Shown here one piece after another: positions 1 through 37,861 of a DNA stretch of 64,000 nt (position 1 is the first letter of the stretch; each line of letters opens with the position of its first letter). Made by a program: the position numbers and the translations under genes. The stretch comes from Xestospongia bergquistia (taxonomy: Eukaryota > Porifera > Demospongiae > Haplosclerida > Petrosiidae). The notes below the pieces were generated by a model. It had not been told where the DNA came from. It made no database searches and saw only the letters and a program-made list of their open reading frames with translations. Location: the NCBI GenBank assembly GCA_963965975.1, contig OZ014415.1, positions 5,151,001-5,215,000 of the forward strand, in the 5' to 3' direction.

Positions 1-1270
1 CATTAATGTCTAATGTCTTTAAGATAAAGACTTTCGAAGGTTTAGACTATTGAGAGATTCTTATAAAGTAAACTGCTCAGTTTATAGGACTTTATGGCAC
101 TAACTAAATAAAGAGCTATTAACAGTTTATTAAGTTAGTTTGCATTAACGCTCTAAAGTCTTTAAGTTAAAGACTTTAGACGGTTTAGACTATTGAGAGA
201 AGTTTATAAAGTAAACTGCTCAGTCTAAAGGACTTTATGGCACTAAATAAATAAACAGCTATTAACAGTTTAGTAAGTTAGTTTGCATTAACGCTCTAAA
301 GTCTTTACGATAAAGACTTTAGAAGTTTTAGACTATTGAGATAAAGTAAACTGTTCAGTCAAAAGGACTTTATGGCACTAACTAAATAAACAGCTATTAA
401 CAGTTTAGTAAGCTAGTTTGCATTAATGCTCTAAAGTCTTTAAGTTAAAAACTTTAGAAGGTTTAGACTATTGAGAGAAGTTTATAAAGTAAATTGCTCA
501 GTCTAAAGGACTTTATGGCACTAACTAAATAAACAGCTATTAACAGTTTAGTAAGTTAGTTTGCATTAATTCTATAATGTCTTTAAGATCAAGACTTTCG
601 AAGGGTTAGACTATTGAGAGATTTTTATAAAGTAAACAGCTCAGTCTATAGGACTTTATGGCACTAACTAAATAAACAGCTATTAACAGTTTATTAACTT
701 AGTTTGCATTAACGCTCTAAAGTCTTTAAGTTAAAGACTTTAGACGATTTAGACTATTGAGAGAAGTTTATAAAGTAAACTGCTCAGTCTAAAGGACTTT
801 ATGGCACTAACTAAATAAACAGCTATTAACAGTTTAGTAAGTTAGTTTGCATTAACGCTCTAAAGTCTTTAAGATAAAGACTTTAGAAGTTTTAGACTAT
901 TGAGATAAAGTAAACTGTTCAGTCCAAAGGACTTTATGGCACTAACTAAATAAACAGCTATTAACAGTTTAATAAGCTAGTTTACATTAATGCTCTAAAG
1001 TATTTAAGTTAAAAACTTTAGAAGGTTTAGACTATTGAGAGAAGTTTATAAAGTAAATTGCTCAGTCTAAAGGACTTTATGGCACTAACTAAATAAACAG
1101 CTATTAACAGTTTAGTAAGTTAGTTTGCATTAATTCTATAATGTCTTTAAGATAAAGACTTTCGAAGGTTTAGACTATTGAGAGATTTTTATAAAGTAAA
1201 CTGTTCAGTCTAAAGGACTTTTTGGCACTAACTAAATAAACAGCTATTAACAGTTTAGTAAGTTAGTTTG
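1..1270 (+). repeat. Satellite HOR block A: 4-monomer, about 564-bp unit
   Basis: Monomers repeat in a fixed order of subtypes. The first has ATGTCTTTAAGATA with CTTTCGAAGG; the second has TTTAGACGG or TTTAGACGA; the third is a 135-bp monomer with GTTCAGTC; the fourth has TTAAAAACTTTAG and AAATTGCTCAG. Starts at 563 and 1127 are 564 bp apart (143+143+135+143). The same order recurs near 2850-4815. Confidence 0.85.
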
Positions 1271-2849
1271 TATTAACGCTCTTAAGTCTTTAAGTTAAAG
1301 ACTTTAGAAGGTTTAGACTATTGAGAGAAGTTTATAAAGTAAACTGCTCAGTCTAAAGGACTTTATGGCAGTAACTAAATAAACAGCTATTAACAGTTTA
1401 GTAAGTTAGTTTGCATTAAAACTCTAAAGTCTTTAAGTTAAAGACTTTAGAAGGTTTAGACTACTGAGAGATGTTTAAAAAGTAAACTGCTCAGTCTAAA
1501 GGACATTATGGCACTAACTAAATAAACAGCTATTAACAGTTTAGTAAGTTAGTTTGCATTAACGCTTTAAAGTCTTTAAGATAAAGACTTTACAGCGTTT
1601 AGACTATTGAGAGATTTTTATAAAGTAAACTGCTCAGTTTATAGGACTTTTTGGCACTAAGTAAATAAGCAGCTATTAACAGTTTAGTAAGTTTGTTTGC
1701 ATTAACGCTCTAAAGTCTTTAAGTTAAAGACTTTAGAAGGTTTAGACTATTGACAGACGTTTTTAAAGTAAACTGCTCAGTCTAAAGGACTTTATGGCAC
1801 TAACTAAACAAACAGCTATTAACAGTTTAGTAAGTTAGTTTGCATTAACGCTCTAAAGTCTTTAAGTTAAAGACTTTAGAAGGTTTAGACTATTGAGAGA
1901 AGTTTATAAAGTAAACTGCTCAGTCTAATGGACTTTATGGCACTAACTAAATAAACAGCTTTTCACAGTTTAGTAAGTTAGTTTGCATTAACGCTCTAAA
2001 TTCTTTAAAATAAAGACTTTAGTAGGTTTAGACTATTGAGAGAAGTTTATAAAGTAAACTGCTCAGTCTAAAGGACTTTATGGCACTAAATAAATAAACA
2101 GCTATTAACAGTTTAGGAAGTTAGTTTGCATTAACGCTCTAAAGCGTTTAAGTTAAAGACTTTAGAAGGTTTAGACTATTGAGAGAAGTTTATAGAATAA
2201 ACTGCTCAGTCTAAAGGACTTTATGGCACTAACTAAATAAAGAGCTATTAACAGTTTAGTAAGTTAGTTTGCATTAACGCTCTAAAGTCTTTAAGTTAAA
2301 GACTTTAGAAGGTTCAGACTATTGAGAGAATTTTGTAATGTAAACTGCTCAGTCTAAAGGACTTTATGGCACTAACTAAATAAACAGCTATTAACAGTTT
2401 AGTAAGTTAGTTTGCATTAACGCTCTAAAGTCTTTAAGTTAAATACTTTAGAAGCTTTAGACTATTGAGAGAAGTTTATAAAGTAAACTGCTCAGTCTAA
2501 AGGACTTTATGGCACTGACTAAATAATCACCTATTAACGGTTTAGTAAGTTTGTTTGCATTAACGCTCTGAAGTCTTTAAGTTAAAGACTTTAGAAGTTT
2601 TAGACTATTGAGAGGAGTTCATAAAGTAAACTTCTCTGTCTAAAGGATTTTATGGCAGTAACTAAATAAATAGCTATTAACAGTTTAGTAAGATAGTTTG
2701 CATTATCCCTTTAAAGTCTTTAAATTAAAGACTTTAGTGGGTATAGACTATAGATAGAAGTTTATAATGTAAACTGCTCAGTCTAATGGACTTTATGGCA
2801 CTAACTAAGTAAACAGCTCTTAACAGTTTAGTAAGTTACTTTGCATTAA

Positions 2850-4815
2850 CGCTCTAAAGTGTTTAACTTAAAGACTTTAGACGGTTTAGACTATTGAGAG
2901 AATTTTATAAAGTAAACTGCTCAGTTTATAGGACTTTATGGCACTAAATAAATAAACAGCTATTAACAGTTTAGTAAGTTAGTTTGCATTAACAGTCTAA
3001 TGTCTTTAAGATAAAGACTTTAGAAGTTTTAGACTATAGAGATAAAGTAACCTGTTCAGTCAAAAGGACTTTATGGCACTAACTAAATAAACAGCTATTA
3101 ACAGTTTAGTAAGCTAGTTTGCATTAACGCTCTAAAGTTTTAAGTTAAAAACTTTAGAAGGTTTAGACTATTGAGAGAAGTTTATAAAGTAAATTGCTCA
3201 GTCTAAAGGACTTTATGGCACTAACTAAATAAACAGCTATTAACAGTTTTGTAAGTTAGTTTGCATGAATGCCTAATGTCTTTAAGATAAAGACTTTCGA
3301 AGGTTTAGACTATTGAGAGATTCTTGTAAAGTAAACTGCTCAGTCTATAGGACTTTATGGCACTAACTTAATAAAGAGCTATTAACAGTTTATTAAGTTA
3401 GTTTGCATTAACGCTCTAAAGTCTTTAAGTTAAAGACTTTAGACGGTTTAGACTATTGAGAGAAGTTTATAAAGTAAACTGCTCAGTCTAAAGGACTTTA
3501 TGGCACTAAATAAATAAACAGCTATTAACAGTTTAGTAAGTTAGTTTGCATTAACGCTCTAAAGTCTTTAAGATAAAGACTTTAGAAGTTTTAGACTATT
3601 GAGATAAAGTAAACTGTTCAGTCAAAAGGACTTTATGGCACTAACTAAATAAACAGCTATTAACAGTTTAGTAAGCTAGTTTGCATTAATGCTCTAAAGT
3701 CTTTAAGTTAAAAACTTTAGAAGGTTTAGACTATTGAGGGAAGTTTATAAAGTAAATTGCTCAGTCTAAAGGACTTTATGGCACTAACTAAATAAACAGC
3801 TATTAACAGTTTAGTAAGTTAGTTTGCATTAATTCTATAATGTCTTTAAGGTAAAGACTTTCGAAGGGTTAGACTATTGAGAGATTTTTATAAAGTAAAC
3901 AGCTCAGTCTATAGGACTTTATGGCACTAACTAAATAAACAGCTATTAACAGTTTATTAAGTTAGTTTGCATTAACGCTCTAAAGTCTTTAAGTTAAAGA
4001 CTTTAGACGATTTAGACTATTGAGAGAAGTTTATAAAGTAAACTGCTCAGTCTAAAGGACTTTATGGCCCTAACTAAATAAACAGCTATTAACAGTTTAG
4101 TAAGTTAGTTTGCATTAACGCTCTAAAGTCTTTAAGATAAAGACTTTAGAAGTTTTAGACTATTGAGATAAAGTGAACTGTTCAGTAAAAAGGACTTTAT
4201 GGCACTAACTAAAATAACAGCTATTAACAGTTTAGTAAGCTAGTTTGCATTAATGCTCTAAAGTCTTTAAGTTAAAAACTTTAGAAGGTTTAGACTATTG
4301 AGAGAAGTTTATAAAGTAAATTGCTCAGTCTAAAGGACTTTATGGCACTAACTAAATAAACAGCTATTAACAGTTTAGTAAGTTAGTTTGCATTAATTCT
4401 ATAATGTCTTTAAGATAAAGACTTTCGAAGGGTTAGACTATTGAGAGATTTTTATAAAGTAAACAGCTCAGTCTATAGGACTTTATGGCACTAACTAAAT
4501 AAACAGCTATTAACAGTTTATTAAGTTAGTTTGCATTAATGCTCTAATGTCTTTAAGTTAAAGACTTTAGACGGTTTAGACTATTGAGAGAAGATTATAA
4601 AGTAAACTGCTCAGTCTAAAGCACTTTATGGCACTAACTAAATAAACAGCTATTAACAGTTTAGTAAGTTTGTTTGCATTAACCCTCTAAAGTCTTTAAG
4701 ATAAAGACTTTAGAAGTTTTAGACTATTCAGAGAAAGTAAACTGCTCAGTCTAAAGGACTTTATGGCACTAACTAAATAAACAGCTATTAACAGTTTAGT
4801 AAGATAGTTTGCATT
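2850..4815 (+). repeat. Satellite HOR block B, second copy of the 4-monomer pattern
   Basis: The four-subtype order of block A returns here, with the CTTTCGAAGG-type monomers starting at 3263, 3826 and 4390 (steps of 563 and 564 bp). The block is displaced by about 3263 bp from block A and is separated from it by less ordered monomers. This suggests segmental duplication within the array by unequal exchange. Confidence 0.85.
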
Positions 4816-7800
4816 AACGCTCTAAAGTCTTTAAGTTAAAGACTTTAGAAGGGTTAGACTAATGAGAGAATGTTATAAAGTAAACTGCACAGTCTAAAGG
4901 ACTTTATGGCACTAACTAAATAAACAGCTATTAACAGTTTAGTAAGTTAGTTTGCATTAACGCTCTAGCCTTTAATATACACACTCTAGAAGGTTAAGAC
5001 TATTGAGAGAATTTTATAAACTAAACTGTTCAGTCTAAAGGACTTTATGGCACTAACTAAATAAACAGGTATTAACAGTTTAGTAAGTTAGTTTGCATGA
5101 ACGCTCTAAAGTCTTTAAGTTAAAGCCTTTAGAAGGTTTACACTAATGAGAGAGGTTATAAAGTAAAGTGCACAGTCTAAAGGACTTGATGGCACTAACT
5201 AAATAAACAGGTATTAACAGTTTAGTAAGTTAGTTTGCATGAACGCTATAAAGTCTTTAAGTTAAAGACTTTAGAATGTTTAGACTATTGAGAGTTTTTT
5301 ATAAAGTAAACTGCTCAGTCTAAAGGACTTTATGGCACTAACTAAATAAACAGCTATTAACAGTTTAGTAAGTTAGTTTGCATTAACGCTCTAGTCTTTA
5401 ATATACACACCTTAGAAGGTTTAGACTATTGAGAGAATTTTATAAAGTAAACTGTTCAGTCAAAAGGACTTTATGGCACTAACTAAATAAACAGCTATTA
5501 ACAGTTTAGTAAGTTAGTTTGCATTAACGCTCTAAAGTGTTTAAGATAAAGTCTTTAGAAGGTTTAGACTATTGAGAGAAGTTTATAAAGTAAACTGCTC
5601 AGTCTAAAGGACTTTATCGCACTAACTAAATAAACAGGTATTAACAGTTTAGTAAGTTAGTTTGCATTAACGCTCTAAAGTCTTTAAGTTAAAGACTTCA
5701 GTTAGTTTAGACTATTGAGAGAAGTTTATAAAGTAAACTGCTGAGTCTAAAGGACTTTATGGCACTAACTAAATAAACAGCTATTAACAGTTTAGTAAGT
5801 TAGTTTGCATTAACGCTCTAAAGTCTTTAAGTTAAGACTTTAGAAGGTTTAGACTAATTAGAGAAGTTTATAAAGTAAACTGCTCAGTCTAAAGGACTTT
5901 ATGGCGCAAACTAATTAAACAGCTATTAACAGCTTTGTAAGTTAGTTTGCATTAACGCTCTAAAGTGTTTAAGTTAAAGACTTTAGAAGGTTTAGACTGT
6001 TGAGAGAAGTTTGTAAAATAAACTGCTCAGTCTAAAGGACTTTGTGGCACTAACTAAATAAACAGCTATTAACAGTTTAGTAAGTTAGTTTGCATTAACG
6101 CTCTAAAGCCTTTAAGTTAAAGACTTTAGAAGGTTTAGACTATTGAGAGATGTTTATAAAATAAACGGCTCAATCTAAAGGACTTTATGGCACTAACTAA
6201 ATAAAGAGCTATTAACAGTTTAGTAAGTTTGTTTGCATTAACGCTCTAAAGTCTTTAAGTTAAAGACTTTAGTAGGTTTACACTAGTGGGACAAGTTTAT
6301 AAAGTAAACTGTTCAGTCTAAAGGACTTTAAGGCACTAACTAATGAAACAGCTATTAACAGTTTAGTAAATTAGTTTGCATTAACGCTCTAAAGTCTTTA
6401 AGTTAAAGACTTTAGAAGGTTTAGACTATTGAGAGAAGTTTAAAAAGTTAACTGCTCAGTCTAAAGGACTTTATGGCACTTACTAAATAAACAGCTATTA
6501 ACAATTTAGTAAGTTAGTTTGCATTAACGCTCCAAAGTCTTTAAGTAAAACACTTTACAGAGTTTAGACTATTGAGAGATTTTTATAAAGTAAACTGCTC
6601 AGTTTATAGGACTTTATGGCACTAACTAAATAAGCAGCTATTAAGAGATTAGTAAGTTAGTTTGCATTAACGCTCTAAAGTCATTAAGATAAAGACTTTA
6701 GAAGGTTTAGACTATTGAGAGACGTTTATAAAGTAAACTGCTCAGTCTAAAGGACTTTATGGCACTAACTGAATAAAAAGCTATTAACAGTTTAGTAAGT
6801 TAGTTTGCATTAACGCTCTAAAGTCTTTAAGATAAAGACTTTAGAATTTTTAGACTATTGAGATAAAGTAAACTGTTCAGTCAAGAGGACTTTATGGCAC
6901 TAACTAGATAAACAGCTATTAACAGTTTAGTGAGCTAGTTTGCATTAACGGTCTAAAGTCTTTAAGTTAAAAACTTTAGAAGGTTTAGACTATTTGGAGA
7001 AGTTTATGGAGTAAACTGCTCAGTCTATACGACTTTATGGGACTAACTAAATAAACAGCTATTAACAGTTTATTAAGTTAGTTTGCATTAACGCTCTAAA
7101 GTCTTTAAGTTAAAGACTTTAGACGGTTTAGACTATTGAGAGAAGTTTATAAAGTAAACTGCTCAGTCTAAAGGACTTTATGGCACTAACTAAATAAACA
7201 GCTATTAACAGTTTAGTAAGTTAGTTTGCATTAACGCTCTAAAGTCTTTAAGAAAAAGACATTAGAATTTTTAGACTATTGAGATAAGGAAACTGTTCAG
7301 TCAAAAGGACTTTATGGCACTAAATATATAAACAGCTATTAACAGTTTAGTAAGCTAGTTTGCATTAACGCTCTAAAGTCTTTAAGTTAAAGACTTTAGA
7401 AGGGTTAGACTAATGAGAGAAGGTTATAAAGTAAACTGCACAGTCTAAAGGACTTTATGGCACTAACTAAATAAACAGCTATTAACAGTTTAGTAAGTTA
7501 GTTTGCATTAACGCTCTAAAGTCTTTAAGTTAAAGACTTTAGAATGTTTAGACTATTGAGAGATTTTTATAAAGTAAACTGCTCAGTCTAAAGGACTTTA
7601 TGGCACTAACTAAAGAAACAGCTATTAACAGTTTAGTAAGTTAGTTTGCATTAACGCTCTAGCCTTTAATATACACACTTCAGAAGGTTTAGACTATTGA
7701 GAGAATTTCATAAAGTAAACTGTTCAGTCTAAAGGACTTTATGGCACTAACTAAATAAACAGCTATTAACAGTTTAGTAAGTTAGTTTGCATTAACACTC

Positions 7801-8229
7801 TAAAGTCTTTAAGTTAAAGACTTTAGATGGTTTACACTAATGAGAGAAGGTTATAAAGTAAACTGCACAGTCTAAAGGACTTTATGGCACTAACTAAATA
7901 AACAGCTATTAACAGTTTAGTAAGTTAGTTTGCATGAACGCTCTAAAGTCTTTAACGTAAAGACTTTAGAATGTTTAGACTATTGAGAGATTTTTATAAA
8001 GTAAACTGCTCAGTCTAAAGGACTTTATGGCACTAACTAAATAAACAGCTATTAACAGTTTAGTAAGTAAGTTTGCATTAACGCTCTAAAGTCTTTAAGA
8101 TAAAGACTTTAGAAGTTTTAGACTATTGAGATAAAGTAAACTGTTCAGTCAAAAGGACTTTATGGCACTAACTAAATAAACAGCTATTAACAGTTTAGTA
8201 AGTTAGTTTGCATTAACGCTCTAAAGTCT

Positions 8230-10220
8230 TTAAGTTAAAGACTTTAGAATGTTTAGACTATTGAGACAAGTTTAAAAAGTAAACTGCTCAGTCTAAAGGA
8301 CTTTATGGCACTAACTAAATAAACAGCTATTAAAATTTAGTAAGTTTGTTTGCATGAACGCTCTAAAGTCTTTAAGTTAAACACTTTAGAGAGTTTAGAC
8401 TATTGAGAGATTTTTATAAAGTAAACTGCTCAGTTTATAGGACTTTATGGCACTAACTAAATAAGCAGCTATTAACAGATTAGTAAGTTAGTTTGCATTA
8501 ATGTTCTAAAGTCATTAAGTTAAAGACTTTAGAAGGTTTAGACTATTGAGAGACGTTTATAATGTCAACTGCTCAGTCTAAAGGACTTTATGGCACTAAC
8601 TAAATAAACAGCAATTAACTCTTTAGTAAGTTAGTTTGCATTAACGCTCTAAAGTCTTTAACTTAAAGACTTTAGAATCTTTAGGCTATTGAAAGTAGTT
8701 TATAAAGTAAACTGCTCAGTCTAAAAGACTTTATGGCACTAACGAAATAAAGAGCTATTAACAGTTTAGTAAGTTAGTTTGCATTAACGCTCTAAAGTCT
8801 TTAAGTTAAAGACTTTAGAAGGTTTAGACTATTGAGAGAAGTTTATAAAGTAAACTGCTCAGTCTAAAGGACTTTATGGCACTAACTAAATAAACAGCTA
8901 TTAACAGTTTAGTAATTTAGTTTGCATTAACGCTCTAAAGTCTTTAAGTTAAAGACTTTAGAAGGCTTAGACTATTGAGAGAAGTTTATAAAATAAACTG
9001 CTCAGTCTAAAGGACTTCATGGCACTAACTAAATAAACAGCTATTAACAGTTGAGTAAGATTGTTTGCATTAACGCTCTAAAGTCTTTAAGTTAAAGACT
9101 TTAGTAGGTTTGCACTAGTGAGACAAGTTTATAAAGTAAACTGTTCAGTCTAAAGGACTTTATGGCACGAACTAAATAAAAAGCTATTAACAGTTTAGTA
9201 AGTTAGTTTGCATTAACGCTCTAAATTCTTTAAGTTAAAGACTTTAGAAGGTTTAGACTATTGAGACAAGTTTAAAAAGTAAACTGCTCAGTCTAAAGGA
9301 CTTTATGGCACTAACTAAATAAACAGCTATTAAAATTTAGTAAGTTTGTTTGCTTGAACGCTCTAAAGTCTTTAAGTTAAACACTTTAGAGAGTTTAGAC
9401 TATTGAGAGATTTTTATAAAGTAAACTGCTCATTTTATAGGACTTTATGGCACTAACTAAATAAGCAGCTATTAACAGATTAGTAAGTTAGTTTGCATTA
9501 ACGCTCTAAAGTCATTAAGTTAAAGACTTTAGAAGGTATAGACTATTGAGAGACGTTTATAATGTAAACTGCTCAGTCTAAAGGACTTTATGGCACTAAC
9601 TAAATAAACAGCAATTAACTGTTTAGCAAGTTAGTTTGCATTAACGCTCTAAAGTCTTTAACTTAAAGACTTTAGAATTTTAGGCTATTGAAAGAAGTTT
9701 ATAAAGTAAACTGCTCAGTCTAAAAGACTTTATGGCACTAACGAAATAAAGAGCTATTAACAGTTTAGTAAGTTAGTTTGCATTAACGCTCTAAAGTCTT
9801 TAAGTTATAGACTTTAGAAGGTTTAGACTATTGAGAGTAGTTTATAAAGTAAACTGCTCAGTCTAAAGGACTTTATGGCACTAACTAAATAAACAGCTAT
9901 TAACATTTTAGTAAGTTAGTTTGCATTAACGCTCTAAAGTCTTTAAGTTAAAGACTTTAGAAGGCTTAGACTATTGAGAGATTTTTATAAAATAAACTGC
10001 TCAGTCTAAAGGACTTTATGGCACTAACTAAATAAACAGCTATTAACAGTTGAGTAAGATTGTCTGCATTAACGCGCTAAAGTCTTTAAGTTAAAGACTT
10101 TAGAAGGTTTAGACTATTTAGAGAAGGTCATAAAGTAAACAGCTCAGTCTAAAGGACTTTATATCACTAACTAAATAAACAGCTAATAACAGTTTAGTAA
10201 GTTAGTTTGCATTAACGCTC
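8230..10220 (+). repeat. Satellite HOR: two copies of a 1000-bp, 7-monomer unit
   Basis: Rare variants recur exactly 1000 bp apart: TTGAGACAAGTTTAAAAAG at 8261 and 9261, GCAATTAACT at 8611 and 9611, and ACTTAAAGACTTTAGAAT at 8661 and 9661. Seven monomers of 143 bp less one base equals 1000. The last of these variants appears again at 11090. Confidence 0.88.
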
Positions 10221-12240
10221 TAAAGTATGTAAGTTAAAGACTTTAGAAGGTTTAGACTATTTAGAGAAGGTTATAAAGTAAACAGCTCAGTCTAAAGGAC
10301 TTTATATCACTAACTAAATGAACAGCTAATAACAGTTTAGTAAGTTAGTTTGCATTAACGCTCTAAAGTATGTAAGTTAAAGACTTTAGAAGGTTTCAAC
10401 TATTGACAGAAGTTTATAAAGTAAACTGCCCAGTCTAAATGACTTTATGGCAGTAACTAAATAAACAGCAATTAACAGTTTAGTAAGTTAGTTTGCATTA
10501 ACGCTCTAAGGTCTTTAGGTTAAAGACTTCAGTAGGTTTAGACTATTGAGAGATGTTCATAAAGTAATCTGCTCAGTCTAAAGGACTTTATGGCACTAAC
10601 TAAATAAACAGCTATTAACAGTTTAGTAAGTTAGTCTGCATTAACGCTCTAAAGTCTTTAAGTTAAAGACTTTAGAAGATTTAGACTATTAAGACAAGTT
10701 TATAAAGTAAACTGCTCAGTCTAAAGGACTTTATATCACTAACTAAATGAACAGCTATTAACGGTTTAGTAAGTTTGTTTGCATTAACGCTCTAAAGTCT
10801 CTATGTTAAAGACTTTACAAGGTTTAGACTAATCAGAGAATTTCATATAGTAAACTGCTCAGTCTAAAGGACTTTATGGCACTAACTAAATAAACATCTA
10901 TTAACAGTTTAGAAAGTTTGTTTGCATTAACGCTCTAAAGTCTTTAAGTTAAAGACTTTAGAAGTTTTAGACTATTGAGAGGAGTTCATAAAGTAAACTT
11001 CTCTGTCTAAAGGATTTTATGGCAGTAACTAAATAAACAGCTATTAACTGTTTAGTAAGTTAGTTTGCATTAACGCTCTAAAGTCTTTAACTTAAAGACT
11101 TTAGAATCTTTAGGCTATTGAAAGAAGTTTATAAAGTAAACTGCTCAGTCTAAAAGACTTTATGGCACTAACGAAATAAAGAGCTATTAACAGTTTAGTA
11201 AGTTAGTTTGCATTAACGCTCTAAAGTCTTTAAGTTATAGACTTTAGAAGGTTTAGACTATTGAGAGAAGTTTATAAAGTAAACTGCTCAGTCTAAAGGA
11301 CTTTATGGCACTAACTAAATAAACAGCTATTAACAGTTTAGTAAGTTAGTTTGCATTAACGCTCTAAAGTCTTTAAGTTAAAGACTTTAGAAGGCTTAGA
11401 CTATTGAGAGAAGTTTATAAAATAAACTGCTCAGTCTAAAGGACTTTATGGCACTAACTAAATAAACAGCTATTAACAGTTGAGTAAGATTGTCTGCATT
11501 AACGCGCTAAAGTCTTTAAGTTAAAGACTTTAGAAGGTTTAGACTATTTAGAGAAGGTTATAAAGTAAACAGCTCAGTCTAAAGGACTTTATATCACTAA
11601 CTAATTAAACAGCTAATAACAGTTTAGTAAGTTAGTTTGCATTAACGCTCTAAAGTATGTAAGTTAAAGACTTTAGAAGGTTTCCACTATTGACAGAAGT
11701 TTATAAAGTAAACTGCTCAGTCTAAATGACTTTATGGCAGTAACTAGATAAGCAGCAATTAACAGTTTAGTAAGTTAGTTTGCATTAACGCTCTAAGGTC
11801 TTTAAGTTAAAGACTTCAGTAGGTTTAGACTATTGAGAGATGTTGATAAAGTAAACTGCTCAGTCTAAAGGACTTTATGGCACTAACTAAATAAACAGCT
11901 ATTAACAGTTTAGTAAGTTAGTCTGCATTAACGCTCTAAAGTCTTTAAGTTAAAGACTTTAGAAGATTTAGACTATTGAGACAAGTTTATAAAGTAAACT
12001 GCTCAGTCTAAAGGACTTTATATCACTAACTAAATGAACAGCTATTAACAGTTTAGTAAGTTAGTTTGCATTAACGCTCTAAAGTCTCTATGTTAAAGAC
12101 TTTATAAGGTTTAGACTAATCAGAGAATTTCATATAGTAAACTGCTCAGTCTAAAGGACTTTATGGCACTAACTAAATAAACATCTATTAACAGTTTAGA
12201 AAGTTTGTTTGCATTAACGCTCTAAAGTCTTTAAGTTAAA
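10100..12240 (+). repeat. Satellite HOR: 1287-bp, 9-monomer offset
   Basis: The rare variant AGGTTTCAAC/AGGTTTCCAC occurs at 10391 and 11678, exactly 1287 bp (9 x 143) apart. It is followed in both places by monomers carrying GACTTCAGTAGG and then by units with ATATCACTAAC. Subtype order, not only sequence, is shared. Confidence 0.82.
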
Positions 12241-20200: not shown

Positions 20201-22700
20201 TTATTGCACTAACTAAATAAACAGCTATTAACAGTTTAGTAAGTTAGTTTTCATTAACGCTCTAAAGTCTTTAAGTTAAAGACTTTAGAAGGTTTAGACT
20301 ATTGAGAGAAGTTTAAAAAGTAAACTGCTCAGTCTAAAGGACATTATGGCACTAACTAAATAAACAGCTATTAACAGTTTAGTAAGTCAGTTTGCATTAA
20401 TGCTCTAAAGTCTTTAAGTTATGACTTTAGAGAGTTTAGACTATTGAGAGACGTTTATAAAGTAAACTGCTCAGTCTAAAGGACTTTATGGCACTAACTA
20501 AATAAGCAGCTATTAACAGTTTAGTAAGTTAGTTTGCATTAACGCTCTAAAGTCTTTAAGTTAAAGAATTCAGTAGTTTTAGATTATTGAGACAAGTTTA
20601 TAAAGTAAACTGCTCAGTCTAAAGGACTTTATGGCACTAACTAAATAAACAGCTATTAACAGTTTAGTAAGTTAGTTTGCATTAACGCTCTAAAGTCTTT
20701 AAGTTAAAGACTTTAGAAGGTTGAGACTATTGAGAGAATTTTATAAAGTAAACTGCTCAGTCTAAAGGACTTTATCGCACTAACTAAATAAACAGCTACT
20801 AACAGTTTAGTAAGTTAGTTTGCATTAACGCTCTAAAGTCTTTAAGTTAAAGACTTTACAAAGTTTAGACTACTGAGAGAAGTTTATAAAATAAACTGGT
20901 CAGTCTAAAGAACTTTATGGCACTAACTAAATAAACAGCTATTAACATTTTAGTAAGATTGTCTGCATTAACGCTTTAAAGTCTTTAAGTTAAAGACTTT
21001 AGAAGGTTTAGAGTATTGAGACAAATGTATAAAGTAAACTGCTCAGTCTAAAGGACTTTATATCACTAAATAAATGAACAGCTATTAACAGTTTAGTAAG
21101 TTAGTTTGCATTAACGCTCTAAAGTCTTTAAGTTAAAGACTTCAGTAGTCTTAGACTAGTGAGAGAAGTTTATAAAGTAAACTGCTCAGTCTAAAGGACT
21201 TTATGGCACTAACTAAATAAACAGCTATTAACAGTTTAGTAAGACAGTTTGCATTAACGCTATAAAGTCTTTAAGTTAAAGACTTTATGGAGTTTGGACT
21301 ATTGAGAGATTTTTATAAGGTAAACTGCTCAGTCTAAAGGACTTTATGGCACTAACTAAATAAGCAGCTATTAACATTTTAGTAAGTTAGTTTGCATTAA
21401 CGCTCTAAAGTCTTTAAGTTAAAGACTTCAGTAGTTTTAGACTATTGAGAGAAGTTTATAAAGTAAACTGCTCAGTCTAAAGGACTTTATGGCACTAACT
21501 AAATAAACAGCTATTAACAGTTTAGTAAGTTAGTTTGCATTAACGCTCTAAAGTCTTTACGTTAAAGACTTTAGAAGTATTAGACTATTGAGAGTAGTTT
21601 ATAAAATAAACTGCTCAGTCTAAAGGGCTTTATTGCACTAACTAAATAAACAGTTATTAACAGTTTAGTAAGATTGTCTGCATTAACGCTCTAAAGTCTT
21701 TAAGTTAAAGTCTTTAGAATGTTTAGACTATTGAGAGATGTTTATAAAGTAAACTGCTCACTCTAAAGGACTTTATATCACTAACTAAATAAACAGCTAT
21801 TAACAGTTTAGTAAGTTAGTTTGCATTAACGCTCTAAAGTCTTTAGGTTAAAGACTTCAGTAGGTTTAGACTAATGAGAGAAGTTTATAAAGTAAACTGC
21901 TCAGTCTAAAGGACTTTATGGCACTAACTAAATAAACAGCTATTAACAGTTTAGTAAGTTATTTTGCATTAACGCTCTAAAGTCTTTAAGTTAAAGACTT
22001 TAGAAGGTTTAGACTATTGAGAGACGTTGATAAAGTAAACTGCACAGTCTAAAGGACTTTATGGCACTAACTAAATAAACGGCTATTAACAGTTTAGTAA
22101 GTTAGTTTGCATTAACACTCTAAAGTCTTTAAGTTAAAGACTTCAGTAGTCTTAGACTATTGAGAGAAGTTTATAAAGTAAACTGGTCAGTCTAAAGGAC
22201 TTTATGGCACTAACTAAATAAACAGCTATTAACAGTTTAGTAAGTTAGCTTGCATTAACGCTCTAAAGTCTTTAAGTTAAAGACTTTACAAGGTTTAGAC
22301 TATTGAGAGAAGTTTATAAAATAAACTGCTCAGTCTAAAGGACTTTATGGCACTAACTAAATAAACAGCTATTAACAGTTTAGTAAGATTGTCTGCATTA
22401 ACGCTCTAAAGTCTTTAAGTTAAAGACTTTAGAAGGTTTAGACTATTGAAAGAATTGTATAAAGTAAACTGCTCAGTCTAAAGGACTTTATATCACTAAC
22501 TAAATGAACAGCTATTAACAGTTTAGTAAGTGAGTTTGCATTAACGCTCTAAAGTCTTTAAGTTAAAGAGTTTAGTAGGTTTAGACTAATCAGAGAATTT
22601 CATAAAGAAAACTGCTCAGTCTAAAGGACTTTATGGCACTAACTAAATAAACAGCTATTAACAGTTTTGAAAGTTTGTTTGCATTAACGCTCTAAAGTCT
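17270..22700 (+). repeat. Satellite HOR zone with 8- and 21-monomer offsets
   Basis: A monomer with TTACGTTAAAGACTTTAGAA followed by ATTGTCTGCATTAAC units occurs at about 17411, 18555 and 21557. The offsets are 1144 bp (8 monomers) and 3002 bp (21 monomers less one base). Another rare variant, TATAGCACTTTTTGGCAC, lies at 15331 and 19334 (28 monomers) and, as a close match, near 23908. Repeated rounds of amplification of different lengths are implied. Confidence 0.8.
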
Positions 22701-25700
22701 TTAAGTTAAACACTTTAGAAGGTTTAGACTATTGAGAGAAGTTTATAAAGTAAACTGCTCAGTCTAAAGGACTTTATGGCACTAACTAAATAAATAGCCA
22801 TTAACAGTTTAGTAAGTTAGTTTGTACTAACGTTCTAAAGTGTTTAAGTTAAAGACTTTAGAAGGTTTAGACTATTGAGAGAAGTTTAAAAAGTAAACTG
22901 CTCAGTCTAAAGGACTTTATGGCACTAACAAAATAAACAGCTATTGACAGTTTAGTAAGTCAGTTTGCATTAACGCTCTAAAGTCTTTAAGTTATGACTT
23001 TAGAGAATTTAGACTATTGAGAGATTTTATAAAGTAAACTGCTCAGTTTATAGCACTTTTTCGCACTAACTAAACAAGCAGCTATTAACAGTTTAGTAAG
23101 TTAGTTTGCATTAACGCCCTAAAGTCTTTAAGTTAAAGACTTTAGAATGTTTAGACTATTGAGAGTAGTTTATAAAATAAACTGCTCAGTCTAAAGTACT
23201 TTATGGCACTAAGTAAATAAACAGTTATTAACAGTTTAGTAAGATTGTACTGCATTAACGCTCTAAAGTGTTTAAGTTAATGACTTTAGAATGTTTAGAC
23301 TATTGAGAGAAGTTTATAAAGTAAACTGCTCAGTCTAAAGGACTTTATATCACTAACTAAAAAAACAGCTATTAACAGTTTAGTAAGTTAGTTTGCATTA
23401 ACGCTCTAAAGTCTTTAGGTTAAAGACTTGAGTAGGTTTAGACTAATGAGAGAAGTTTATAAAGTAAACTGCTCAGTCTAAAGGACTTTATGGCACTAAC
23501 TAAATAAACAGCTATTAACAGTTTAGTAAGTTAGTTTGCATTAACGCTCTAAAGTCTTTAAGTTAAAGACTTTAGAAGGTTTAGACTATTGAGAGAATTT
23601 TATAAAATAAACCGCTCAGTCTAAAAGACTTTATGGCACTAACTAAATAAACAGCTATTAACAGTTTAGTAAGTTAGTTAGCATTAACGCTCTAAAGTCT
23701 TTAAGTTAAAGACTTTAGAAGGTTTAGACTATTGAGAGAAGTTTATAAAGTAAACTGCTCAGTCTAAAAGACTTTATGGCACTAACTAAATAAACAGCTA
23801 TTAACAGTTTAGTAAGTTAGTTTGCATTAACGCTCTAAAGTCTTTAAGTTAAACACTTTAGAGAGTTTAGACTATTGACAGATTTTTATAAAGTAAACTG
23901 CTCAGTTTATAGCACTTTTTGGCACTAACTAAACAAGCAGCTATTAACAGTTTAGTAAGTTATTTTGCATTAACGCTCTAAAGTCTTTAAGTTAAAGACT
24001 TTAGAAGGTTTAGACTATTGAGAGACGTTTATAAAGTAAACTGCTCAGTCTAAAGGACTTTATTGCACTAACTAAATAAACAGCTATTAACAGTTTCGTA
24101 AGTTAGTTTGCATTATCGCTCTAACGTCTTTAAGTTAAAGACTCTAGAAGGTTTAGACTATTGGGAGTAGTTTACAAAATAATCTGCTCAGTCTAAAGGA
24201 CTTTATGGTACTAACTAAATAAACAGTTATTAACAGTTTAGTAAGATTGTGTGCATTAACGCTCTAAAGTCTTTAAGTTAAAGTCTTTCGAATGTTAGAC
24301 TATTTAGAGAAGTTTATAAAGTAAACTGCTCAGTCTAAAGGACTTTATGGCACTAACTAAATAAACAGCTATTAACAGTTTAGTAAGTTAGTTTGCATTA
24401 ACGCTCTAAAGTCTTTAAGTTAAAGACTTTAGAAGGTTTAGACTATTGAGAGAAGTTTACAAAATAAACTGCTCAGTCTGAAGGACTTTATGGCACTAAC
24501 TAAATAAACAGCTATTAACGGTTTAGTAAGTTAGTTTGCATTAACGCTCTAAAGTCTTTAAGTTAAAGACTTTAGTAGGTTTAAACTATTGAGACAAGTT
24601 TATAAAGTAAACTGTTCAATCTAAAGGACTTAATGGCACTAAATAAATAAACAGCCATTAACAGTTTAGTATGTTAGTTTGCATTAACGCTCTAAAGTCT
24701 TTACGTTGAAGAATTTAGAAGGTTTAAACTATTGAGAGAAGTTTAAAAAGTAAACTGCTCAGTCTAAAGGACTTTATGGCACTAACTAAATAAGCAGCAA
24801 TTAACAGTATAGTAAGTTAGTTTGCATTAACGCTCTAAAGTCTTTAAGTTAAACACTTTAGAGAGTTTATACTATTGAGAGTTTTTTATAAAGTAAACTG
24901 CTCAGTTTATAGGACTTTATGGCACTAACTGAATAAGTAGCTATTAACAGTGTAGTAAGTTAGTTTGCATTAACGCTCTAAAGTCATTAAGTTAAAGACT
25001 TTAGAAGGTTTAGACTATTGAGAGACGTTTATAAAGTAAACTGCTTAATCTAAAGGACTTTATGGAACTAACTAAATAAAGAGCTATTAACAGTTTAGTA
25101 AGTTAGTTTGCATTAACGCTCTAAAATCTTTAAGTTAAAGACTTTAGAGAGTTTAGACTATTGAGAGATTTTTATAAAGTAAACTGCTCAGTTTATAGGA
25201 CTTTATGGCACTAACTAAATAAACAGCTATTAGCAGTTTAGTAAGTTAGTTTGCATTAACGCACTAAAGTTTTTAAGTTAAAGACTTTAGAAGGTTTAGA
25301 CTATTGAGAGACGTTTATAAAGTAAACTGCACAGTCTAAAGCACTTTATCGCACTAACTAAATAAACAGCTATTAACAGTTTGGTAAGTTTGTTTGCATT
25401 AACGCTCTAAAGTCTTTAAGTTAAAGACTTTAGAAGGTTTAGACTATTGAGAGTAGTTTATAAAGTAAACTGCTCAGTCTAAAGGACTTTATGGCACTAA
25501 ATAAATAAACTCCTATTAACAGTTTAGTAAGTTAGTTTGCTTTAACGCTCCAAAGTCTTTAAGATAAAGACTTTAGAAGGCCTAGACTATTGAGAGAAGT
25601 TTATAAAGTAAACTGCTCAGTCTAAAGGACTTTATGGCACTAAATAAATAAACAGCTATTAACACTTTAGTAAGTTGGTTTGCATTAACGCTGTAAAGTC

Positions 25701-28700
25701 TTTAAGTTAAAGACTTCAGTAGGTTTAGACTATTGAGAGATATTTATAAAGTAAACTGGTCAGTCTAAAGGACTTCATGGCACTAACTAAATAAACAGCT
25801 ATTAACAGTTTAGTATGTTAGTTTGCATTAACGCTCTAAAGTCTTTAAGATAAAGACTTTAGAAGGCTTAGACTATTGAGAGAAGTTTTTAAAGTAAACT
25901 GCACAGTCTAAATGACTTTATGGCACTAACTAAATAAACAGCTATTAACAGTTTAGTAAGTTAGTTTGCATTAACGCTCTAAAGTCTTTAAGTTAAAGAC
26001 TTTAGAAGGTTTAGACTATTGAGAGAAGTTTATAAAGTAAACTGCTCAGTCTAAAGCACTTTATGGCACTAAGTAAATAAACAGCTTTTAACAGTTTAGT
26101 AAGTTTGTTTGCAATAACGCTCTAAAGTCTTTAAGTTAAAACTTTAGAAGGTTTAGACTATTGACAGAATTTTATAAAATAAACTGCTCAGTCTAAAGGA
26201 CTTAATGGCACTAACTAAATAAACAACTATTAACAGTTTAGTAAGTTAGTTGCCATTAACGCTCTAAAGTCTTTAAGTTAAAGACTTTAGTAGGTTTAGA
26301 CTTTTGAGACAAATTTATAAAGTAAACTGTTCAGTCTAAATGACTTTATGGCACTAACTAAATAAACAGCTATTAACAGTTTAGTAAGTTAGTTTGCATT
26401 AACGCTCTAAAGTCTTTAAGTTAAAGACTTTAGTAGGTTTAGACTATGGAGACAAATTTATGAAGTAAACTGGTCAGTCTAAAGCACTTTATGGCACGAA
26501 GTAAATAAGCAGCTATTAACAGTTTAGTAAGTTTGTTTGCAATAACGCTCTAAAGTCTTTAAGTTAAAACTTTAGAAGGTTTAGACTATTGAGAGAAGTT
26601 TATAAAATAAACTGCTCAGTCTAAAGGACTTAATGGCACTAACTAAATAAACAGCTATTAACAGTTTAGTAAGTTAGTTGCCATTAACGCTCTAAAGTCT
26701 TTAAGTTAAAGACTTTAGTAGGTTTAGACTATTGAGACAAATTTATAAAGTAAACTGCTCAGTCTAAAGGACTTAATGGCACTAACTAAATAAACAGCTA
26801 TTAACAGTTTAGTAAGTTAGTTGCCATTAACGCTCTAAAGTGTTTAAGATAAAGTCTTTAGAAGGTTTGGACTATTGAGAGAAGTTATAAAGTAAACTGC
26901 TCAGTCTAAAGGACTTTATGGCACTAACTAAATAAACAGATATTAACAGTTGAGTAAGTTAGTTTACATTAACGCTCTAAAGTCTTTAAGTTAAAGACTT
27001 TAGTAGGTTTAGACTATTGAGTGAAGTTTCAAAAGTAAACTGCTCAGTCTAAAGGACTTTATGGCACTATCTAAATAAACAGCTATTAACAGATTAGTAA
27101 GTTTGTTTGCATTAACGCTCTAAAGTCTTTAAGTTAAAGACTTTAGAAGGTTTAGACTACTGAGAGTATTTTATAAAATAAACTGCTCAGTCTGAAGGAC
27201 TTTATGGCACTAACTAAATAAACAGCTATTAACAGTTTAGTAAGTTAGTTTGCATTAACGCTCTAAAGTCTTTAAGTTAAAGACTTTAGTAGGTTTAGAC
27301 TATTGAGACAAGTTTATAAAGTAAACTGTCAGTCTAAAGGACTTTATGGCACTAACTAAATAAACAGCTATTAACAGTTTAGTAAGTTAGTTTGCATATA
27401 AGTTAAAGACTTTAGAAGGTTTAGACTGTTGAGAGAAGATTATAAAGTAAACTGCTCAGTCTAAAGGACTTTATGGCACTAACTGAATAAACAGCTATTA
27501 ACAGTTTAGTAAGTTCGTTTGCATTAACACTCTAAAGTCTTTAAGTTAAAGACTTTGGAAGATTTAGACTATTGAGAGATGGTTATAAAGTAAACTGCCC
27601 AGTCTAAAGGACTTTATGGCACTAACTATATAAACAGCTATTAACAGTTTAGTAAGTTAGTTTGCATTAACGGTCTAAAGTCTTTAAGAGAAAGAGTCTA
27701 GAATGTTTACACTGTTGAGAGATTTCTATAAAGTAAACTGCTCAATCCATAGGACTTTATGGCACTAACTAAATAAACAGCTACTAACAGTTTAGTAAGT
27801 TAGTTTGCATTAACGCTCTAAAGTCTTTAAGTTAAAGACTTTAGAAGGTTTAGACTATTGAGAGAAGTTTATAAAGTAAACTGCTCACTCTAAAGAACTT
27901 TATGGCTCTAACTAAATAAACAGCTATTAACAGTTTAGTAACTTAGGTTGCATTAATGCTCTAAAGCCTTTAAGATAAAGACTTTAGAAAGTTTAGACTA
28001 TTGAGAGATTTTAATAAAGTAAACTGCTCAGTTTATAGGACTATATGGCACTAACTAAATAAACAGCTATTAACAGTTTAGTAAAGTTAGTTTGCATTAA
28101 CGCTCTAAAGTCTTTAGTTTAAAGACTTCAGAAGGTTTAGACTATTGAGAGAAGCTTATAAAGTTATCAGCTCAGTCTAAAGGACTTTATGGCACTAACT
28201 AAATAAACAGCTATTAACAGTTTAGTAAGATAGTTTGCATTAACGCTCTAAAGTCTTTAAGTTAAAGACCTTAGAAGGTTTAGACTATTGAGAGAAGTTT
28301 ATAAAGTAAACTGCTCAGTCTAAAGGACTTTATGGCACTAACTAAATAAACAGCTATTAACAGTTTAGTAAGTTAGTTTGCATTAACGCTCTAAAGTCTT
28401 TAAGTTAAAGACTTTAGTAGGTTTAGACTATTGAGTGAAATTTATAAAGTAAACTGCTCAGTCTAAAGGACTTTATGGTACTAACTAAATAAACAGCTAT
28501 TAACAGTTTAGTAAGTTAGTTTGCATTAAGACTCTAAAGTCTTTAAGTTAAAGACTTTAGAAGGTTTAGACTATTGAGAGAAGTTGATAAAGTAAACTGC
28601 TCAGTCTAAAGGACTTTATGGCACTAACTAAATAAATAGCTATTGACAGTTTAGTAAGTTTGTTTGCATTAACGCTCTAAAGTCTTTAAGTTAAAGACTT

Positions 28701-29099
28701 TAGAAGGTTTAGACTATTGAGAGAAGTTTATAAATAAAATTGCTCAGTCTAAAGGACTTTATGGCACTAACTAAATAAACAGCTATTAACAGTTTAGTAA
28801 GTTAGTTTGCATTAACGCTCTAAAGTCTTTAAGTTAAAGACTTTAGAAGGTTTAGACTATTGAGAGATGTTTATAAAGTAAACTGGTCAGTCTAAAGGAC
28901 TCTATGGCACTAACTAAATAAACAACTATTAACATTTTAGTAAGTTAGATTGCATTAACACTCTAAAGTCTTTAAATTAAAGACTTTAGTAGGTTTAGAC
29001 TTTTGAGAGAAGTTTAAGAAGTAAACTGCTCAATCTAAAGGACTTTATGGCGCTAACTAAATAAACAGCTATTAACAGTTTAGTAAGTTACTTTGCATT

Positions 29100-32000
29100 A
29101 ACTCAGTCTAAAGGAGTTAATGGGACTAACTAATAAAACTTCTATTAACAGTTTAGTAACTTTGTTTTGATGATGCTCTAAAGTCTTTAAGTTAATGACT
29201 TTAGAAAGTTTAGACTTTTGAGTGAATTTTATAAAGTAAACTGCTCAATCTAAACGACCTTATGGCACTAACTAAATAAACAGCTATTAACAGTTCAGTA
29301 ACTTAATTTGCATTAACGATCGAAAGTCTTTAAGTTAAAGACTTTATAAAGTTTAGACTATTTAGCGAAGTTTATAAAGTAAACTGCTCTGTCTAAAGGA
29401 CTTTATGGTACTAAGTAAATAAACAGCTATTAACAGTTTAGTAAGTAAGTTTGAATTAACGATCTAAAGTATTTAAGTTGAAGAATTTAGAAGGTTTAGA
29501 CTGTTTAGTGAAGTGTATAAAGTAAACTGCTCAGCCTAAAGGACTTAATGGGACTAAGTAAATAAACTGCTACTGACAGTTTAATAAGTTATTTTGCATT
29601 AACGCTCCAAAGTCTTTAAGTTAAAGACTTTATAAGGTTTAGATTATTGACTGAAGTTTATAAAGTAAAATGCTCAATATAAAGGTCTTTTTGGCACTAA
29701 CTAAAGCAACAGCTATTACAACTTCAGTAAGTTGGTTTGCATTAACGCTCTAAAGTCTTTAAGTTAAAGACTTTAGAAAGTTTAGACTATTGAATGAATT
29801 TTATAAAGTAAACTGCTCAGTCTAAAGGACTTTATGGCACTAACTAAATAAACAGCTATTAACAGTTTAGTAAGTTAATTTGCATTAACGCTCTAAAGTC
29901 TTTAAGTTAAGGACTTTAGAAGGTTTAGACTATTGAGTGAAGTTTATAAAGTAAACTGCTCAGTATAAAGGTCTTTATGGCACTAACTAAGTAAACAGCT
30001 ATTAAAAGTTTAGTAAGAGTTTTTGCATTAACGCTCTAAAGTCTTTAAGTTAAAGACTTTAGAAGTTTTAGACAATTGAGTGAAGATTATAAAGTAAACT
30101 GCTAAGTGTAAAGGACTTTATGGCACTAACTAAATAAGCTTCTATTAACAGTTTAGTAAGTTAGTTTGCATTAACGCTCTAAAGTCTTTAATTTAAAGAC
30201 TTTAAAAGGTTTAGACTATTGAGTGAAGTGTATAATGTAAGGTGCTCTGTTTGAAGGACTTAATGGGACTAACTAAAGAAACTGCTACTAACATTTTAGT
30301 AAGTTTGTTTGCATTAACGCTCTAAAGTCTTTAATTTAAAGACTTTAGAAGGTTTACACTATTTATTCATGGTGATAGAGTAAACTGCACAGTCTAAGGG
30401 ACTTTATGGCACTAATTAAATAAACAGCTATAACAGTTTAGGAAGTTTTTTGCATTAACGCTCTGGAGTTTTAAGTTAAAGACTTTAGAAGGTTTAGACT
30501 ATTGAGTGAATTTTATAAAGTAAACACTCAGTCTAAAGGTTTTAATGGGACTATCTAAGCACACTGCTATTAACAGTTTAGAAAGTTTGTTTGCACTAAC
30601 GCTATAAAGTCTTTAAGTTAAAGACTTTAGAAAGTTTAGACTGTTGAGTGAATTTTACAAAGTAATCTGCTCAGTCTAAAAGACTTAATTGGACTAACTA
30701 AACAAACTGCTACTAACAGTTTAGTAAGTTTTTTTGCATTAACGCTCTAAAGTCTTTAAGTTAAACACTTTATAAGGTTTTGGCTATTGACTGAAGTTTA
30801 TAAAGTAAAATGTTCACTATAAAGGTCTTTATAGCACTAACTAAATAAACAGCTATTAACAGTTTAGTAAGTTGGTTTGCATTAACGCTCTAAAGTCTTT
30901 AAGTTAAAGACTTTAGAAGGTTTAGACTATTGAGTGAAGTTTATAAAGTAAACTGCTCGGTGTAAAGGTCTTTATGGCACTAACTAAATAAACAGCTATT
31001 AAATGTTTAGCAAGTTTGTTTGCATTAACGGTCTAAAGTCTTTAAGTTAAAGACTTTAGAAGGTTTAGACTATTGAGTGAAGTTTATAAAGAAAACTGCT
31101 CAGTCTAAAGGAATTAATGGTACTAACTAAATAAACTGCTACTAACATTTTAGTAAGTTGGTTTGCATTAACACTCTAAAGTCTTTAAGTTAAAGACTTT
31201 AGAAGTTTTAGACTTTTGAGTGAAGTGTATAAAGTAAGCTGCTCAGTGTAACGGCCTTAATGGGACTAATAAGAAACTGCTACTAACAGTTTAGTAAGTT
31301 TGTTTGCATTAATGCTCTAAAGTGTTTTAGTTAAAGACTTAAAAAGGTTTAGACTATTGAGTGAATTTTATAAAGTAAACTGCTCAGTATAAAGGTCTTT
31401 ATGGCACTAACTAAATAAACAGCTATTAAATGTTTAGTTAGTTTTTTGCATTAACGCTTTAAAGTCTTTTAAGTTAAAGACTTTAGGAGGTTTAGACTTT
31501 TGAGTGAAGTTTATAAAGAAAACTGCTCAGTCTAAAGGACTTAATGGGACTAACTATACAAACTGCTACTAACAGTTTAGTAAGTTGGTTTACGTTAACT
31601 GTCGAAAGTCTTTAATTGAAAGTCTTTAAAGGTTTAGACTATTGAGTGAATTTTATAAAGTAATTTGCTAAGTCTAACGGACTTACTGCAACTAACTAAA
31701 TAACCTGCAATTAACAGTTTAGTAAGGTGGCTTGCATTAAGTGTCTAAAGTCTTTAATTTAAAGACTTTAGAAGGTTTAGACTATTGAGTGAATTTTATG
31801 AAGTAAATTGCTCCGTCGAAAGGACTAATAGGACTAACTCATCAAGCTGCTACTAACAGTTTAGTAAGTTGTTTGCATTAACGCTCTAAAGTCTTTAATT
31901 TAAAGACTTTAGAAGGTTTAGACTATTGAGGGATTTTTATAAAGTAAACTGTTCAGTCTAAAGGACTTAATGGCACTAAATAAATAAACTGCAATGAACA

Positions 32001-32397
32001 GTTTAGTAAATTGGTTTGCATTAACGCTCTAAAGCCTTTAATTTAAAGACCTTAGAAGGTGTAGACTATTGAGAGAAGTTTATAAAGTAAACTGCTAGGT
32101 GTAATGGTGTTAATGGGACTAACTCAAGAAGCTGCTACTAACAGTTCAGTAAGTTGGTTTGTATTAACGCTCTAAAGTCTTTAATTTAAAGACTTTAGAA
32201 TGTTTACACTATTGAGTGAAGTTTATAAAGTAAACTGCTCAGTCCAAAGGACTTAATAGGACTAACTAAATAATCTGCAATTAACAGTTTAGTAAGTTTG
32301 TTTGCATTAACGCTCTAAAGTCTTTAATTTAAAAGTTTATAAGGTTTAGACTATTGAGTGAAATTTATAAAGTAAACTGCTCAGTCTAAAGGACTTA
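29100..32397 (+). repeat. Diverged edge zone of the satellite array
   Basis: From about 29100 the monomers change character. GAGTGAA replaces GAGAGAA, TGGGACTAAC often replaces TGGCACTAAC, and the centre of dyad 1 is often AATTTAAAG. Unit-length deletions become common; the first, at about 29101, loses most of one monomer. The same edge subtype occurs at 37134-37859 and in the inverted block at 38827-40138, so these segments belong to one original array margin. Divergent edges are usual for satellites homogenised mainly in the centre. Confidence 0.85.
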
Positions 32398-36306: not shown

Positions 36307-36447
36307 GTATGTGACATTATACTATAATTAACCCTTTAATAGTGGCTTGCCATTTTAGAAACTACACTAGAGCAGTCAAAGAATAACCTGACAACCAGTA
36401 TGAAAATATTCACAATATAATAATACAATTCATGTATTTCATTACAG

Positions 36448-37859: not shown

Positions 37860-37861
37860 TA

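Follow-up and report, generated by a model that had tools for sequence, protein, structure and literature searches.

The satellite array and its monomer

The window analysed here is a stretch of 64,000 nucleotides (nt) from the sponge Xestospongia bergquistia (contig OZ014415.1, positions 5,151,001 to 5,215,000; C5:5151001-5215000 in the chromosome numbering used below), and it contains a tandemly repeated satellite with a monomer of 143 base pairs (bp), followed on the right by a transposon-rich island. The satellite lies head-to-tail on the plus strand at ~30% GC, and Tandem Repeats Finder (TRF) reports a period of 143 across 1-29102 and 29102-32396. The following features were annotated in the array:

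1-32397, plus strand: main satellite array, of monomer type A until ~28 kilobases (kb) and then passing toward the R form at the right edge (TRF and per-monomer typing; the types are described below)
29103-29176, plus strand: truncated monomer of 74 nt, a register slip (monomer alignment, TRF break at 29102)

An earlier reading of this DNA from its letters alone (the sequence-only reading) placed the satellite at 1-32397, which is correct but incomplete, as the satellite is present also at 37-40 kb and runs on leftward beyond the window start. A wrap-around alignment of the array yielded 227 monomers spanning all consensus columns with a mean identity of 0.941 to the consensus, and 184 of these have a length of exactly 143 nt. 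Neighbouring monomers exhibit 0.87-0.94 mean identity to each other, and identity is nearly flat across lags in most samples, so that no clear kilobase-scale higher-order repeat is apparent; the first 40 monomers of the window carry a weak four-monomer signal (identity 0.925 at lag 4 versus 0.892-0.898 at lags 1-3).

The consensus monomer is made up of three consecutive dyads: dyad 1 (positions 1-29, 14-bp arms), 3 nt, dyad 2 (33-78; 8+3+6 pairs and a 5-nt loop), 12 nt, dyad 3 (91-131; 13 of 15 pairs and an 11-nt loop), and 12 nt. The partition given by the sequence-only reading, 29+3+46+12+41+12 = 143, is exact, including the arms, pairs, and loops of all three dyads. Its further statement that 116 of the 143 nt pair holds for the span of the dyads, which is 116 nt, but the bases in Watson-Crick pairs number only 88 (44 pairs).

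Folding of the monomer

Minimum-energy single-strand folding of the consensus was compared with that of 2000 dinucleotide shuffles. As single-stranded DNA, the consensus folds into three hairpins at -26.4 kcal/mol versus a shuffle mean of -12.0 (z -5.9, 0 of 2000 as low), and with RNA parameters it reaches a z of -3.9, with 1 of 2000 shuffles as low. Perfect inverted repeats, counted at arms of at least 10 nt and a gap of at most 20 nt, cover 12-18% of five 5-kb satellite samples versus 0.2-0.4% of their shuffles (two per sample), and 0-0.8% of three 5-kb non-satellite samples from the window. The three-hairpin architecture is real and is no by-product of AT content, having beaten the composition-matched shuffles that had been proposed as its control. 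A derivation of all three dyads from a single duplicated subunit was considered and is weak at best (P 0.032 for the best of six comparisons), and a comparison with known RNA families gave no match at gathering score.

Chromosomal distribution

The genome assembly comprises 146.46 megabases (Mb) in 21 contigs, with C1-C15 measuring 5.4-28.2 Mb and C16-C20 at most 98 kb; Xestospongia muta likewise has 15 chromosomes (PMC12398682). The genome contains 8653 copies of a 25-base core of dyad 1 (5916 + 2737), and a control search with the reversed pattern gave 0. Five longer, rarer exact patterns gave 121, 56, 184, 29, and 186 matches genome-wide. The 56- and 29-match patterns were listed in full, and the other four exact patterns were represented by their first 100 places each; among the matches listed, every place of the six patterns lies within one domain per chromosome:

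C1: 18.37-18.72 Mb
C2: 12.28-12.83 Mb
C3: 4.15-4.70 Mb
C4: 4.19-4.75 Mb
C5: 4.44-5.26 Mb
C6: 3.37-4.22 Mb
C7: 4.70-5.27 Mb
C8: one match at 4.50 Mb
C9: 4.76-5.02 Mb
C10: 2.44-2.92 Mb
C11: 3.37-3.88 Mb
C13: 3.21-3.67 Mb
C15: 2.48-2.97 Mb

C8, C12, and C14 were probed with 20 segments of 300 bases, which gave four satellite matches (C8 at 4.90 Mb, C12 at 4.25 and 4.70 Mb, C14 at 2.95 Mb) and 16 misses. Outlying probes found satellite on C13 at 3.90 and 4.10 Mb, on C15 at 2.46, 3.00, 3.12, and 3.14 Mb, on C6 at 4.23 Mb, and on C4 at 4.745 Mb, and four of these 12 probes were without it (C13 at 3.85, 4.05, and 4.26 Mb; C10 at 2.437 Mb). The satellite is thus present on 15 of 15 chromosomes, with one domain each among the matches listed and with C8, C12, and C14 represented by probes.

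Several other features were seen in the course of this survey. The C2 domain at 12.28-12.83 Mb, which is of type B, switches orientation several times over tens of kilobases, whereas the listed matches of type A run mostly one way. C14 starts with CCCTAAA telomere-like repeats, a motif of the plant type although the genome is animal-like. Stop-containing nuclear copies of mitochondrial COX1 lie at C6:3154917-3155898 and C6:3199148-3200446, ~0.17-0.21 Mb to the left of the satellite domain, and C21 carries mitochondrial COX1, open with TGA read as Trp, with nad4L-like, trnS, trnD, trnC, and nad1-like neighbours; the COX1 protein and the order of these genes seem to resemble those of demosponges.

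Monomer types A, B, and R

The window array and 20 samples of ten kilobases each supplied a set of 1490 monomers from 11 chromosomes. Only full-length monomers were kept, and those with less than 0.70 identity, more than six gaps, more than six insertions, or any N were dropped; the minus-strand block alone was used from sample L023 and the array part alone from L029, L032, and L039, and the window blocks at 37-40 kb were left out. Consensus sequences therefore cover 11 of the 15 chromosomes, C8, C9, C12, and C14 being without long samples.

The consensus is identical on C4, C5, C6, C7, C10, C11, C13, and C15 and defines type A. Ten sites separate it from the consensus of C1 and C2, and 8 of those 10 separate it from that of C3; these three chromosomes carry type B. 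C9 carries three exact B monomers, and the four satellite probes from C8, C12, and C14 are nearer B. In the sequences compared, the chromosomes are split by type, with A on eight and B, or a form nearer B, on seven.

A third form is found as the window array nears its right end, where the fraction of sites in the A state, 0.91-0.96 in bins to 28 kb, falls to 0.79, 0.61, and 0.55. The consensus of 26 right-edge monomers (partial ones included) defines R, which differs from A by 6 changes and from B by 7. R-like monomers, matching R at 9 or more of 11 sites, number 26 of 1490 (10 in the window, 7 on C6, 5 on C4, 3 on C3, and 1 on C1). The 16 that lie outside the window reproduce the R consensus bar one site, although the 11 selected sites agree partly by construction, and a looser set, the 116 monomers from beyond the window in which the dyad-1 centre is T, is a mixture of R and B states. 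R is intermediate between A and B and looks ancestral to both, A and B appearing derived; the R form already has the dyads, which would have been passed on along with the monomer.

Tests for selected pairing

The sequence-only reading had proposed covariation between paired arm positions as a sign of selected structure and a lack of excess compensatory change as evidence against it. Covariation was counted on distinct monomers of each type, and double Watson-Crick changes show no excess in either type (A, 35 versus 32.1 expected; B, 14 versus 15.7). Paired sites are not better conserved than others within types, as 53 of 142 circular shifts in A and 30 of 142 in B score as high. When the types are pooled only 1 of 142 shifts scores as high, but this was rejected as a signal of constraint, being driven by the sites diagnostic of A and B and vanishing within types.

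Folding tests were performed on gap-free distinct monomers, with at most 400 per set in the initial comparison with randomised monomers and 250 in the follow-up, in which the rare-variant test retained 74 (A) and 177 (B) monomers. When rare variants were moved at random, the folding energy of real minus randomised monomers was +0.30 +/- 0.19 in A and -0.22 +/- 0.18 in B, with no clear effect. Type B is more stable overall than its randomised counterparts (-1.26 +/- 0.18 kcal/mol, n 330), but this was not accepted as selection: the excess is -1.12 +/- 0.20 with diagnostic sites fixed and -0.78 +/- 0.19 without the diverged C3 sample L027, and it is read as shared ancestry because it shrinks to the -0.22 +/- 0.18 given above (-0.29 +/- 0.18 without L027) when only rare variants are considered. 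In type B the inner stem of dyad 2 is broken by two uncompensated changes, and dyad 3 is extended. Dyads 2 and 3 drift.

Conservation of dyad 1

All three consensus sequences, A, B, and R, have identical dyad-1 arms (28 bases), and within this dyad only the centre has changed. In type B the arms are the best-conserved stretch of the monomer (0 of 142 circular shifts as high), whereas in type A the arms as a whole do not stand out (38 of 142) and it is the core that ranks high (3 of 142, or 9 of 142 when base-corrected). Perfect dyad-1 palindromes occur in 309 of 884 A monomers and 188 of 394 B monomers, and all carry the consensus arms, which suggests that the sequence of dyad 1 is kept and not merely its pairing. 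Only the dyad-1 arms look constrained, apparently via sequence rather than pairing, and dyad 1 is therefore, with modest confidence, a candidate site for a symmetric (dimeric) DNA-binding protein, which is favoured over a selected cruciform; passive extrusion of cruciforms under torsion may still occur. The mammalian CENP-B box (TTCGNNNNANNCGGG) matches 0 of the 1490 monomers.

Tandem units of satellite and island

To the right of the array the window carries the following features:

32398-37131: left part of the island, with pogo/Tigger-type remains, a 248-bp tandem repeat, and a PHD-finger-like frame
33686-34207 and 34445-35356: pogo/Tigger-type remains, two open pieces in the same frame (HTH_psq and DDE_1, respectively)
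35645-36389: 248-bp tandem repeat (TRF)
36387-36602: short PHD-finger-like open frame
37132-37861, plus strand: small block of R-like satellite monomers (TRF, consensus BLAST match at 37134-37861, monomer typing)
38656-38873, plus strand: short satellite match adjoining the inverted block (consensus BLAST)
38834-40142, minus strand: inverted satellite block, R-like and diverged, with 8 full monomers and 0.846 mean identity to the A consensus (TRF, consensus BLAST match at 38833-40128, monomer typing)
40817-42525, plus strand: fragmented remains of a piggyBac transposase (DDE_Tnp_1_7), interrupted by 200 N at 41657-41856
42526-64000: rest of the island in the window, repeat-rich, with 236-280-bp and 37-bp tandem repeats

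No gene was recognised among the pieces of 42526-64000 that were tested, and a ~1.7-kb block at 54442-58000 is present in three tandem copies that contain shorter repeats of 37 bp and 54 bp.

Three markers of 45 bases, taken from the sequence to the right of the array and named by their window positions, were searched genome-wide allowing up to 3 mismatches. The piggyBac marker 42255 gave 42 matches, 41 of which are confined to the eight chromosomes of type A, with all eight represented (C4 6, C5 6, C6 8, C7 4, C10 4, C11 3, C13 5, C15 5), and the remaining match, with 3 mismatches, is on C1 at 18.13 Mb. The spans of the listed satellite matches contain 33 of these 41, and the probe-extended spans contain 36, the other five lying 17-74 kb beyond. 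Marker 62166 gave 46 matches, of which 40 fall within or next to the domains on C4-C7, C10, and C13-C15 and six lie elsewhere with 1-3 mismatches (C1, C6, C8, C9 twice, and C11). Marker 36523 gave 59 matches, 37 in or beside the satellite domains of C4, C5, C6, C7, C10, C13, and C15 and 22 dispersed; one base is common to all 22 dispersed copies and absent from all 37 domain copies, which fits a copy of a dispersed element that was amplified along with the unit.

Spacings between neighbouring copies fall within 109-224 kb for 28 of 30 intervals of marker 36523 (the others being 16.0 and 64.9 kb) and within 110-223 kb for 32 of 32 intervals of marker 62166. These two markers are separated mostly by 37-56 kb but by 25.6 kb in the window copy, which, compared with the other C5 copies, is without ~14 kb between marker 36523 and piggyBac. 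An R pattern on C5 recurs five times as plus/minus pairs 6957-6958 bases apart, the last pair being that of the window at 31876 and 38834. Similar islands number 3-8 per chromosome, and the A satellite and the transposon-rich island are organised in tandem units, mostly of 109-224 kb, on eight chromosomes.

Twelve 400-base probes were compared with the window: six (C5, C7, C13) match its island at 98.8-99.8%, and of the other six, two are satellite-like only, one matches only the last 34 bases of the window, one from C14 matches at 88%, and two give no match. An additional probe from C10 matches the island at 98.0%. The identity of the matching probes, ~99%, exceeds that between neighbouring satellite monomers. 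Marker variants are chromosome-specific, with one of the piggyBac marker in 4 of 4 copies on C7 and others of marker 62166 in 5 of 5 copies on C13 and 4 of 4 on C4.

CENP-B derives from the pogo/Tigger transposase family, and the pogo/Tigger remains at 33686-35356 sit inside the repeated, putatively centromeric unit, but a link to the satellite dyads was not found. Pogo terminal repeats related to the satellite were also considered and rejected, since the sole satellite-like pair in 32300-37300 is the satellite itself.

Interpretation

The 143-bp repeat is likely to be a centromeric satellite, either bearing the kinetochore or lying immediately adjacent to it, with type A arranged in giant units and dyad 1 kept more likely as the site of a dimeric protein. 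The satellite domains are probably the centromeres, as the satellite is present on every chromosome in one domain each, and it is this distribution that suggests a kinetochore function. Several observations weigh against this reading. A search with the CENP-C_C profile gave no match, although this is a weak test as the search ignores introns, and the domains of C1 (~66% of its length) and C2 (~78%) are off-centre. The constraint on dyad 1 in type A is restricted to a core that was defined after the data were seen. There are also two weak hints of structure: A and B retain more folding stability than R does when changed at random (P 0.085 and 0.078, respectively), and only 3 of the 10 differences between A and B fall on paired sites (P 0.044).

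It is possible, though on balance improbable, that the dyads are a functionless accident of the founding monomer that was spread neutrally via array amplification. Both the lack of covariation and the lack of within-type constraint on pairing agree with this, as does the order of folding energies, R being the most palindromic form (-29.0 kcal/mol) and A (-26.4) and B (-24.2) less so; the unchanged dyad-1 arms, best conserved in B, do not, and z values of -5.5 to -7.7 are unlikely without some cause. Selection of the hairpins themselves, with cruciform or other non-B DNA helping to load CENP-A as in the Kasinathan-Henikoff model (outlined in PMC9070824), is doubtful. The strong dyad enrichment, the absent CENP-B box, and the two hints of structure favour it, but no covariation and no selection on the folding of rare variants were detected, paired sites are not better conserved within types, B carries the uncompensated changes in dyad 2, and no perfect dyad-1 palindrome has changed arms. 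The cruciform put forward by the sequence-only reading is thus disfavoured, while the dimeric-protein site that it also suggested is possible for dyad 1, where the arms rank top in B and the core ranks high in A, but the full arms in A are unremarkable. A strongly dyad-rich satellite without covariation is a useful caution against taking each dyad at a centromere for a selected cruciform.

That the domains are pericentromeric or other heterochromatin rather than the kinetochore site is similarly doubtful: the transposon-rich islands, the off-centre domains of C1 and C2, and the empty CENP-C_C search would suit it, but one domain is found on every chromosome and the window holds no competing satellite of comparable size. 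Descent of the monomer from a palindromic mobile element (a miniature inverted-repeat transposable element or a fold-back element) turned tandem, the third origin raised by the sequence-only reading, is quite unlikely. It would account for three consecutive dyads, fuller in R, beside an island with transposons, but no positive evidence for it emerged: among the matches listed the exact patterns all lie inside the domains, in a search directed at exact rather than diverged dispersed copies, and the pogo-type element has no satellite-related terminal repeats around it. An assembly artefact, in which the same reads were placed several times to give the giant units, is very unlikely, because despite the very high identity of island copies and the N stretches in the assembly, one of them inside the island, unit lengths vary within a chromosome and marker variants are chromosome-specific.

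Returning to a centromeric satellite in giant units, whole A units may have multiplied recently within chromosomes and spread by recombination from one chromosome to other, non-homologous ones, and A would in that case be replacing an older satellite type. We regard it as an even prospect that these are transferable centromere units, each a ~40-kb island with tens of kilobases of palindromic satellite, arrayed in tandem several times per chromosome, recently copied among 8 of 15 non-homologous chromosomes, and replacing an older type that survives on the other seven. Were this so, the karyotype would have been captured in the middle of a sweep by a centromere cassette. Should the domains be centromeres, an early-branching animal would possess two types of satellite, on eight and seven chromosomes, together with an ancestral monomer that can still be recognised and an island that serves as a marker, and the turnover of centromere DNA and its spread between chromosomes would become testable across close relatives.

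Comparison with known systems

Literature searches, at the level of listings, turned up nothing on a sponge centromere satellite. At the same level they showed no evident match for tandem units of satellite plus island, which is thin evidence that such units are novel. Primate alpha satellite has a nucleosome-scale monomer, types that are common to sets of chromosomes, and older monomers at array edges. The sponge satellite resembles it in monomer scale, in types common to chromosome sets, and in older-looking monomers at the edges, but differs in that its large period is a unit of more than 100 kb that includes an island, with no clear kilobase-scale higher-order repeat. Drosophila centromeres contain islands of retroelements within satellite, and the sponge likewise has transposon-rich islands embedded in satellite; unlike those of Drosophila, the sponge islands are present in 3-8 copies per chromosome and on several chromosomes that are not homologous, with island probes ~99% identical.

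Centromeres rich in dyads and lacking CENP-B boxes have been described as a class, which includes African green monkey, chicken, and fission yeast (Kasinathan and Henikoff, as set out in PMC9070824). The sponge satellite is like this class in its enrichment of short dyads above control and its lack of CENP-B boxes, and unlike it in that three dyads take up nearly the whole monomer and the tests for selected structure were negative. In Tribolium madens, the satellites TmSat1 and TmSat2 exhibit dyads at three levels, including macro-dyads (PMC13081366). By comparison with that account, the sponge monomer is without a large intra-monomer palindrome, and an inverted block of ~1.3 kb beside an array of more than 32 kb forms no balanced macro-dyad in the window and short samples; the two systems are alike in having dyads within monomers and inverted satellite blocks within the putative centromeric domains found on all chromosomes (PMC13081366).

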